From Naegleria lovaniensis (Eukaryota; Heterolobosea; Eutetramitea; Acrasida; Naegleriidae), in assembly GCF_003324165.1 (NCBI RefSeq), contig NW_025407873.1:152981-216980 (forward strand): 64,000 nt of DNA, read 5' to 3'. The notes under the pieces are model-generated. The model worked only from the letters and a program-made list of their open reading frames with translations, searched no databases and was not told the DNA's origin. The position numbers and the translations under genes are program-made. Numbering within the stretch: position 1 is the first letter of the stretch; each line of letters opens with the position of its first letter. This document shows positions 45,829 to 52,424 of this stretch, piece after piece.

Positions 45829-48800
45829 CTAATTTCCACAAACCTTCAATTGGAGATTTGACACTTGATGATAAAACAGCTCTCTCAAAGCAAGTTTTGA
45901 ATAAGTCTTGTATACAAGGCATTTCAAATGGTCTGTATTCAATAAGGTCTTTTCAAGTACCCAATCTCTCTCATCAGGTTTAAAAAATAGAGAATCCACA
46001 AGGAATGCACATGGTTGTTGAAAGATTTCACATAATGGATCCAAAATCTGAGGATAAGTGAGTGGATTGGAAAGACAATTTTCAATATTTTCTGAAATGA
46101 CAATTAACCTAAAAACATAATTCTCATGATTAGAATTCTCTTCTTCATGGTGATCCCAATAAGGTAACACTGTCCAGAACAAATCTAAAAATTCACTCAT
46201 CATTCGAGCATGTCTCAATGTTGTTGTATGATTGTTATGAAACCATTCCTTCATTTGTTCTTTCAAAAATAGTTGTAACGATTGACCTCTATACAATTCC
46301 AAATACCAAAGAGTTTGAATCAATCGACGATCATCGAGTAATGAACTTGCATTTTCAAATAATTGAGGTAGATTCAATCGTTCACTCACGATCTTGATCA
46401 TGTTGTCATACATTCGACCTAACAGAGATACACTGTGTCGAGTTGGTAACTTGGAAAATACAGAACATGAAAAATTTAAATCATGAGGAATGTAATAATG
46501 AGGAAATCCAGGAAACTCTTTCAGTAGACTCTCATGACTGGATTGAGAAGAGAATGAATGGTCAACATTTCGTCCTCTTTCTCTAAATTTTGAAGAATTC
46601 TCATGCATTCTCAATGGAGGAATATTCGCCATCACTGAAGAGAATATTTCTTGAGAGGTCCATTTGGAATCAAAAACATCTGCAAAAGCATCTCGAAAAG
46701 GAATCCAAAACTGTTGAATTTCTGGATCTGTTGTGGCTCTATATCTCATATTCTCCAAAGATGAATCAATGACATTATTACTTTCATCTGGGAATGGCTC
46801 ACATGCTTTTACAATTTCCTGATCCCAACATATGAAATACTTGTTGAGGCTCATACAAGTGCTGTCGCTACATGATGCAGGAAATACAATGACATTGGTC
46901 AAATGTAAAAGTTGTTTCAATGATTCATTTTGATTCAATTGTTGAGAATTGAGAGTTTTCAATCTTCTCAAATCTCCTCGATGAAAACATGGTTCTTTGG
47001 TAATGATCACTTCATTCTCAATGAGAGTTTTCATCGTTCCATTCTTGTTTGAAATTTGAATGAATATTTCGTTTGATTTCAACACACCATAAGGATCCAC
47101 AACACCATACAATCTTCTTGAATTTGGAATTCTCATTTTCATGTTCAATAATTTGGAACGAAATGGACCAACAAGAAATGAAGTAATAGAGTCATGATAA
47201 CTTCCCAATAAATTCAATGCTGCAAAATCTCCATCTTTCAAATATTGTCGGATGAGTAATTTTCTTTGTTGTTGATCATCATTAATATTTTCACATAAAT
47301 ATGAATTCATAGTTTCTTCAACATGACGAACCATGAGTTTCTCAAAAATTGGTGCTAATTCTCCTCGTTGATCGCATCCATTAAACATGTGTAATAAATT
47401 CACATTAGCTTCTGCATCTTGATCACTTCCTTGAGAATAATCAAGTATATGAATGGGATAATGATACGAGTGGTGAGTTTCCACGTGTTGAGATTCAAGT
47501 AGAAATGTGTGTTTGACAGAATCATGATTGACATTCTCATTAGAGGTTAATAAATAACCCAATGTGTTATTCCATTCAATTCTAAAGTAGGAAGGAGGAG
47601 AAGGTGATGTCAAAGGTGAATTTTGGTCATATTCATCAAGCTTGATGTCCTCATGACTTCCTAAATGAGAAATGATTTGATGTGCCAATTTGGTAGAAAT
47701 AAATAAAGGTCCTTGATTCAAATCATAATTGATTCGAAGTGTTAATAAAAATTCTGGTCGTTGCAAAAAGCACTTCACTTGTTGAACTTTCTTGTCTGTT
47801 TCATCATCGACAAGAACCATATATGGATGAGGTTTTCTTCCACTCAATTGTCCATAAAATTTAGAGTTGAAATAGAATGTATTATCATCTTCAAGTGCTA
47901 CTTGAAAAGTCTCACCTGCAATTTTCAACTTGGCATCTAATTGTTGCGATCTTAATAATAATTGTACATTTTCAAATTGGGAAGCCAATGAGGGAGTGTA
48001 AACAGAGTTGAAGGATGATTTCATGGCATGTTTCCCATGTTTGGATAAAAATGAGGATTGTAAATTTTCATACATGCAATTCCAAAACTCAAATGAAGAT
48101 TTCGAAGAACGTGAAAAGAGTAGTTCACGTTCTAATACACTCATGGTGGTTGAGTAATGAGGATATTCCATTTTCAAATAGAGCGAATCTTCTGATTTTG
48201 TGTGTTTTCTCTCTAAGGGTGATTGGAGGAAAGGGAAGAGAGAGTAGTCATCATCATTCTTGACATTCAATTCTGATTTCTTTATCATTTTCAATCGAAT
48301 AATAAAGAGAGGAGCAATGGCATAATTATCATCTTCATTACGAAAAAGATCATGAAGGTATGGACAATAGGTAAAATAGGGAATGACTTGACATGTATAA
48401 CACTGTGTAATATCTTGTTCCTGAATGGAATTGTGAGGTGTGGATGGTTGTTGCTGTTGTCGAGGATGGTGAGAATTATATTCCTTCTCTGGTTGGTCAT
48501 CAAAACAAGCATAACCAAATTTGAAACGATGAAAAGACGACTTGTTGTTCATCATGCTGTCCTCTTGTTTGGAATTTTCTTGAAACCATTTCCTTGAATC
48601 GGAATGATCGAAATCTGTGGAATGTTGTAATAAACGTGCATGGATACAATTCAATCCCTTTACACTCACTAAATATTGATGCGTACAGGCACTCAAGACT
48701 TTGAATTTTTCTGAAAAACCAAGTTGTGCATACGGTTGGTGGTTCTTATTGTCGAATTGAAATTTTTGATATTTTTTAATACATTCCACTAAGAGAGGTG

Positions 48801-52000: not shown

Positions 52001-52424
52001 CATGCACATTTATGTATTGAATTCATGTTTGGAAGATCTGAACCTGCTAGAACGAGACGTTCTTCTCCAAGATTGGTTTGATTCCTACACAAATCGAGTC
52101 ATGACTTTGATGGGAATGGATTCTGTTCCTTTAGAGAAAATTGAGATGGAAGGCTATACCAATATGAATATCTATGAAACCAAAATATGGTCAAACAAGT
52201 TCACACCAAACATGATCGCTTGGGCATTGGAACAAGTCATTGAATCTTCATTGAGAATACAGGTAGAGTTAGGATTTAATTTACACGAGATGATGAAAGA
52301 ATATTTGAGTGGGGAACAATTCTCACAATCAACGGAAAGTCTTTCTCAACTTTTAATGAATATGCTTGAGAATCGAGATCGATTGGAGAGTGAGTTTCCA
52401 AAAACACTATTAAGGAGCGTGTAA
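49068..52424 (+). CDS. Cellular RNA-dependent RNA polymerase (RdRP, silencing type)
   Basis: The protein of 1,118 residues has the signatures of eukaryotic RDR/QDE-1/EGO-1 polymerases in order: FSDGCGFIS (S426-DGCG), [14 protein letters not shown] (from Q492), [33 protein letters not shown], and the catalytic [14 protein letters not shown] with D731, D733 and D735. The double-psi beta-barrel enzyme copies single-stranded RNA and makes double-stranded RNA for Dicer-dependent silencing. An acidic run (EEEEEE, near 478) lies in a linker. The ATG at 49068 is the first in frame; MPHFLAP at 49107 is an alternative. It is head to head with the inactive paralogue at 45829-49026, which shares a 366-bp tract. 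No intron is needed. Confidence 0.9.
   Translation: [1118 protein letters not shown]
50854..51219 (+). repeat. 366-bp gene-conversion tract, copy in the active RdRP
   Basis: See 46875-47240. The tract covers the codons from just before [15 protein letters not shown] to FPA and ends 38 bp before the catalytic DLDGD codons. Confidence 0.85.

Follow-up and report, generated by a model that had tools for sequence, protein, structure and literature searches.

Within the stretch of Naegleria lovaniensis DNA analysed here (the window, 64,000 nucleotides), two RdRP genes stand head to head, and one of them, gene A, appears to be a retained pseudo-polymerase, the non-catalytic sister of gene B, with a probable role as a non-catalytic partner in RNA silencing; this reading is given a probability of roughly 0.55. 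In the proposed mechanism, A would have kept an open, codon-biased frame and lost both barrel motifs, the bridge-helix Gly and the trigger-loop Lys, and gene conversion with B would have rewritten 366 bp between the barrel motifs, halting where the aberrant loop of A begins. Loss of a whole RdRP loop has rarely been reported. A dead RdRP that is kept head to head with a partner to all appearances active, and that has recently exchanged part of its core with this partner, would provide a compact test of whether RdRPs without catalysis function as subunits in silencing. A literature search found no title on this RdRP pair, a result that does not in itself establish absence in print.

The gene pair and its surroundings

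Both genes were taken from the list of open reading frames and are separated by a narrow spacer:

45829-49026, minus strand: gene A, putative pseudo-RdRP of 1065 aa (open reading frame list; Pfam RdRP, PF05183)
49027-49067, no strand assigned: spacer of 41 bp between the ATGs of A and B (ATG positions)
49068-52424, plus strand: gene B, 1118 aa, RdRP of the RDR type whose catalytic motifs are intact (open reading frame list; PF05183; alignment to RDR2)

The initial annotation had described this pair as head to head, with a minus-strand paralogue open for 1,065 codons and an Asp triad at D731, D733 and D735 of the plus-strand gene. Each of these points holds: the two ATGs are 41 bp apart on opposite strands, the frame of A spans 1065 aa, and DLDGD falls at residues 731-735 when B starts at 49068, its first in-frame ATG, from which the length of 1118 aa is also counted. 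The spacer is presumed to act as a shared divergent promoter of A and B, and A is, by the homology set out below, an ancient duplicate and the sister of B.

Adjoining A, at 42973-45624 (minus strand), lies a gene whose 883-aa product carries a protein kinase domain at its N terminus and ten DUF4116 stretches, and a Sir2-family gene is found about 7 kb from the RdRP pair (36988-39024, minus strand). At the start of a farnesyl-diphosphate-synthase-like open reading frame at 41990-42883 (plus strand), the match to solved enzymes sets in only near residue 69 of the latter, which makes an exon farther upstream likely and introns in this genome probable. Elsewhere in the window, a tandem trio of DUF4116 genes (8332-10563, 12059-14350 and 16825-19191, minus strand) is 90-91% identical across about 2.3 kb; with the poorly aligned first block set aside, blocks of 100 columns are between 77% and 100% identical, and which two copies are most alike shifts along the gene, a pattern that suggests mosaic exchange there too. 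Short diverged direct repeats, 68-88% identical, cluster at 63006-63762, within the kilobase that has the window's highest G+C content.

Gene B as an apparently active RDR-type RdRP

Gene B passes the Pfam RdRP profile PF05183 with 288.6 bits, against a gathering score of 23.8, and when it is cut in three each part passes on its own, the flanks scoring 106.9 and 81.1 bits. Over the catalytic core it aligns with Arabidopsis RDR2 (PDB 7eu0; E 4.9e-21) and, at lower significance, with QDE-1; its C-terminal part is recognized, at a probability of 94.8%, by a profile built from two plant RDRs. The catalytic core is held in common with RdRPs of the Arabidopsis RDR2 / RDR-alpha type (PDB 7eu0, 7roz), including the motifs PSAFQIR-GG-KG, TKxPC-H-GD and G-DLDGD. 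Both catalytic motifs, namely the DxDGD loop and the barrel-1 Gln and Lys, are present, and B is to all appearances an active RdRP:

50538-50567, plus strand: canonical barrel-1 motif of B, whose Gln and Lys match RDR2 Q582 and K589
51258-51272, plus strand: metal-binding loop DLDGD of B, D731/D733/D735 (residues 731-735 from the ATG at 49068)

Loss of the active site in gene A

The corresponding segments of gene A read differently:

47557-47586, minus strand: degenerate barrel-1 motif FRIEWNNTLG of A, residues 481-490 (alignment to the barrel-1 motif of B)
46843-46875, minus strand: aberrant loop SCSDSTCMSLN of A, residues 718-728, replacing the DxDGD segment (comparison with B)

The loop region of A reads VIVFPA-SCSDSTCMSLNK-YFICWD, and the interval from VIVFPA to YF comprises 12 residues in A against 19 in B; the earlier description of a paralogue that is seven residues shorter here, with SCSDSTCMSLN and no Asp triad, therefore stands. 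The patterns D.DGD and D.D.D are absent from all six frames of A, so that neither an intron nor a choice of frame within A supplies the triad, and the unnoticed, loop-restoring intron that the initial annotation had itself raised is thereby excluded.

To say that A has lost its DxDGD loop, as was first proposed, is correct for the triad but incomplete for the active site: A differs from Arabidopsis RDR2 in having neither the Asp triad nor the equivalents of Q582, K589, G886 and K923. At the barrel-1 positions, Q582 is replaced by Arg and K589 by Leu; in a gappy alignment, with RDR2 numbers counted by hand, the bridge-helix G886 column holds Pro in A and Gly in B, and the trigger-loop K923 column holds Glu in A and Lys in B. 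The roles of all these RDR2 residues, the Asp triad included, are described in PMC8713982, excerpts of which state that the barrel-2 triad is needed for catalysis and that triad mutations abolish RDR2 activity. Because a triad required for catalysis in RDR2 is lost from A, A should not polymerize. It should, in other words, not be a canonical polymerase, and canonical binding of both the catalytic metal and the initiating NTP is predicted to be lost.

An inverted 366-bp tract of near-identity

Between the two barrel motifs, A and B share an inverted block with sharp edges:

46875-47240, minus strand: converted tract, copy in A (residues 597-717 plus edge bases), 362/366 identical to the B copy
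50854-51219, plus strand: converted tract, copy in B, 362/366 identical to the A copy

The two copies of this 366-bp block agree at 362 of 366 nucleotides, and the four differences comprise two synonymous and two amino-acid changes. Beyond the block, ungapped identity falls at once to 13-33% per 30 nt (seven upstream blocks examined), the longest word common to the A and B flanks is 12 nt, at non-homologous sites, and the best homologous patch (24/29 nt) lies about 36 nt past the downstream end of the tract in A. That end falls on the opening base of codon 718, where the aberrant loop starts, and lies 13 codons before D731 in B. In an ungapped search with 16-nt seeds, the tract was the sole inverted pair of at least 60 nt in the 64-kb window, and blastn returned one further, weak inverted pair (83% over 99 columns). 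The latter, at 14618-14704 and 35249-35347, has arms of about 90-100 nt and lies clear of the large open reading frames listed.

Outside the tract, A and B carry the same amino acid at 216 of 818 aligned positions (about 26%), and their synonymous codons are saturated: identical residues with degenerate codons use the same codon in 105 of 204 cases, against 97.5 +/- 6.6 expected from codon usage alone. Inside the tract, the same codon is used in 114 of 116 cases. Saturated synonymous divergence outside, together with near-identity inside, points to an old duplication and a young tract and hence to ectopic gene conversion, for which bounded near-identity, synonymous sites included, within otherwise diverged paralogues is the expected signature. 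On these contrasts, which are internal to one assembly, the tract is a recent gene conversion within an old duplicate pair. The paralogues had been said to align on both sides of the loop; homology does exist on both sides, but the upstream match is this converted tract, which had been missed.

The extent of divergence around the tract becomes apparent when columns identical among B, RDR2 and 7w84 (three sequences) are treated as invariant. Inside the tract, A retains 25 of 25 such residues; outside it, 12 of 42. None of the five metal- or NTP-contacting residues outside the tract (RDR2 Q582, K589, D830, D832 and D834) is kept, and of the remaining 37 invariant residues there 12 are kept and 25 lost, meaning that losses extend beyond the active site. 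The contrast of 0/5 with 12/37 suggests that loss in A is concentrated at the active site. Since the tract keeps every family-invariant residue and the flanks of A do not, conversion from B to A is the likelier direction, and a third donor, of which no copy was seen in the window, may also have been the source. Codon-usage scores of the tract (0.27 and 0.26 per codon) exceed those of the flanks of both genes and of all 15 training open reading frames (maximum 0.168), and would fit either a core of preferred codons or a third, highly expressed donor.

Homology of A to B can nevertheless be followed outside the tract, as the masked sequence of A still matches B at residues 728-954 (76.3 bits), 478-577 (49.3 bits) and 28-183 (35.8 bits), compared with at most 24.6 bits in shuffled controls (100 per part of A; best 23.9 bits for the N-terminal and 24.6 bits for the C-terminal part). 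Recognition as an RdRP is another matter. Whole A scores 91.9 bits with PF05183, above the gathering score of 23.8, and the tract alone 78.6 bits, so that A would wrongly pass for an ordinary RdRP of recent origin in annotation or trees drawn from the tract. The flanks of A alone have no Pfam match listed up to E 10 and retrieved no RdRP in a PDB search; whole A matches the RdRP structures of the PDB marginally (best E 0.00043), in a region confined to residues 629-742, and the profile of two plant RDRs gives no usable match to its C-terminal part (probability 2.6%). Given that its flanks match no RdRP in Pfam or the PDB, A is, by these searches, far more diverged than the phrase "lost the loop" suggests.

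AlphaFold2, supplied with a two-row alignment of A and B, returned a mean pLDDT of 28.8 for A and 27.8 for B. No relatives of B were found in viral_contigs (queried with B alone and with an alignment of B and two plant RDRs) or in genome_contigs (queried with that alignment); the queries were thus all based on B, and because these collections contain viral and prokaryote sequence the result says little. Pattern matches in the searches for relatives (1, 12 and 112 stretches) are unconfirmed.

Coding constraint on gene A

Signs of a pseudogene (stops, frameshifts or loss of codon bias) were absent across the 1065 codons of A. Its 943 flank codons contain no stop, against about 66 expected at neutral equilibrium, and in neutral simulations (400 runs each) the stop-free runs amounted to 16% at 0.01 substitutions per site, 2% at 0.02 and 0.3% at 0.05, falling to 0 of 400 at 0.1, 0.3 and 1.0. 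Against a codon-usage table built from 15 other open reading frames of the window, both genes score as gene-like, with z values of 8.1 and 6.4 for the N- and C-terminal parts of A and of 9.2 and 5.2 for those of B. Together with the saturated synonymous divergence, the stop-free codons and gene-like usage argue for past protein-level constraint, and A has, on this evidence, been under such constraint for most of its history since separating from B. Stops and codon usage speak to the history of A, with which a recent loss of function may be compatible. The original proposal of a retained, non-catalytic RdRP paralogue is borne out as regards the loss of the active site and coding constraint during most of the divergence; what it overlooked are the conversion tract, the loss of the barrel-1 motif and the lack of any RdRP match for the flanks of A taken by themselves. 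The roles that it put forward for A, as a heterodimer subunit, an RNA-binding factor or a dominant regulator, are candidates.

Proposed role and competing explanations

As a retained pseudo-polymerase, A would serve B or another silencing complex, either as a subunit without catalysis or as a factor that handles RNA. Holding the template, annealing strands and filling the inactive half of a dimer like that of QDE-1 are candidate tasks, and the 41-bp divergent spacer would drive co-expression of A and B. One pangenome study reports components of the RNAi machinery in every Naegleria that it covered (n=16; PMC9928731). According to the abstract of a 2026 review of pathogenic amoebae, homologues of genes tied to RNA interference elsewhere are missing, but N. 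fowleri candidates for Dicer and Argonaute, of low identity, are listed in the text of the same review (PMC13315211), RdRPs going unmentioned in the excerpts. The N. gruberi Dicer DCR3 is reported to carry changes at the catalytic residues of each of its two RNase III domains (PMC4791657), so catalytic decay in Naegleria may extend beyond RdRP.

Several other explanations deserve to be weighed. Gene A could be dying, having lost catalysis first and all function only recently, with the conversion as a neutral accident between neighbours. The disappearance of 30 of the 42 family-invariant residues outside the tract would agree with such a course, as would the 16% of simulations that remain stop-free at 0.01 neutral substitutions per site, and Cryphonectria rdr4, which is without DXDGD, is called an apparent pseudogene by its authors (PMC4182546); however, saturated synonymous divergence, 943 stop-free codons and gene-like usage indicate that the divergence was mostly constrained, which leaves a dying gene unlikely, albeit worth serious consideration.

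Alternatively, A could by now serve a purpose unrelated to silencing. A neofunctionalized protein that left the silencing pathway and kept the fold alone would account for flanks that go unrecognized as RdRP unless B bridges the comparison, but it sits uneasily, if only indirectly, with a gene that adjoins B over a 41-bp divergent spacer and has exchanged a piece of its core with B, and it is considered rather improbable.

A further possibility, on the whole doubtful, is that A and B form an obligate heteromeric RdRP in which one chain polymerizes and the dead chain holds or anneals RNA, with repeated conversion of the piece shared between the barrel motifs keeping a common surface identical in the two chains, and with the catalytic loop past the tract edge remaining different. 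If true, the two-stroke dimer proposed for QDE-1 would have a heterodimeric equivalent here, its subunits kept matched via concerted evolution.

An assembly or gene-model artefact, whether a chimeric contig or an unnoticed loop-restoring intron, is very improbable. Near-identical inverted blocks within two diverged genes are typical trouble spots for assemblers, but this one lies at a homologous position, in frame on both sides, with four differences and with flanks that are themselves homologous, and DxDGD is encoded in no frame of A. Finally, the notion that the block acts as RNA, with read-through yielding a 366-bp hairpin for Dicer and the RdRP pair silencing itself, draws on the tract, which far exceeds any other inverted pair seen in the window in length and identity, and is extremely improbable, given that divergent genes carry the block in the same sense, so that their normal mRNAs are not complementary, that the arms are 3,613 nt apart and that conversion already accounts for the identity.

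Comparison with known systems

For the preferred reading of A as a non-catalytic partner in silencing, the nearest functional precedent is, by analogy, RDR3 of Paramecium, and it is on this precedent that such a role is taken as the likeliest one for A. Paramecium RDR3, characterized as "highly divergent", perhaps "catalytically dead" and possibly mediating strand hybridization, is required for transgene-induced siRNA accumulation and heterochromatin (PMC4937312), and of the 11 copies expected in the P. aurelia complex all 11 have been kept (PMC8059543). Likened by description, the P. tetraurelia protein resembles A in having a divergent RdRP domain without the conserved residues, kept beside active RDRs; the head-to-head pairing and converted tract of A and B go unmentioned in the excerpted text of PMC4937312. 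Paramecium RDR1 and RDR2 are reported to be jointly needed for one dsRNA-processing activity, and RDR complexes are suspected (PMC12876857).

Other systems offer partial parallels. Cryphonectria parasitica rdr4, of the rdr4 / Neurospora RRP-3 group, is, like A, RdRP-like and without DXDGD, and it is still transcribed and virus-induced; its RdRP domain is truncated by a premature stop in the transcripts, whereas A is full length (PMC4182546). The Neurospora QDE-1 homodimer, modelled with one active and one inactive subunit (PMC8713982), illustrates a possible use for a dead sister such as A, although QDE-1 is a homodimer and a dimer of A and B would be hypothetical. The Trypanosoma AdoMetDC prozyme, a dead paralogue that heterodimerizes with the enzyme (PMC6221367), might likewise serve as a model, the enzyme itself being unrelated.

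In a survey of 90 RDR homologues from 38 species, as excerpted from PMC4791657, Mucor RDR2 was, apart from one unclear gene model, the sole complete sequence to deviate from DLDGD in more than its second residue. Non-catalytic RdRPs are already known from a few other organisms, and to these the A and B pair would add head-to-head pairing and a converted tract.
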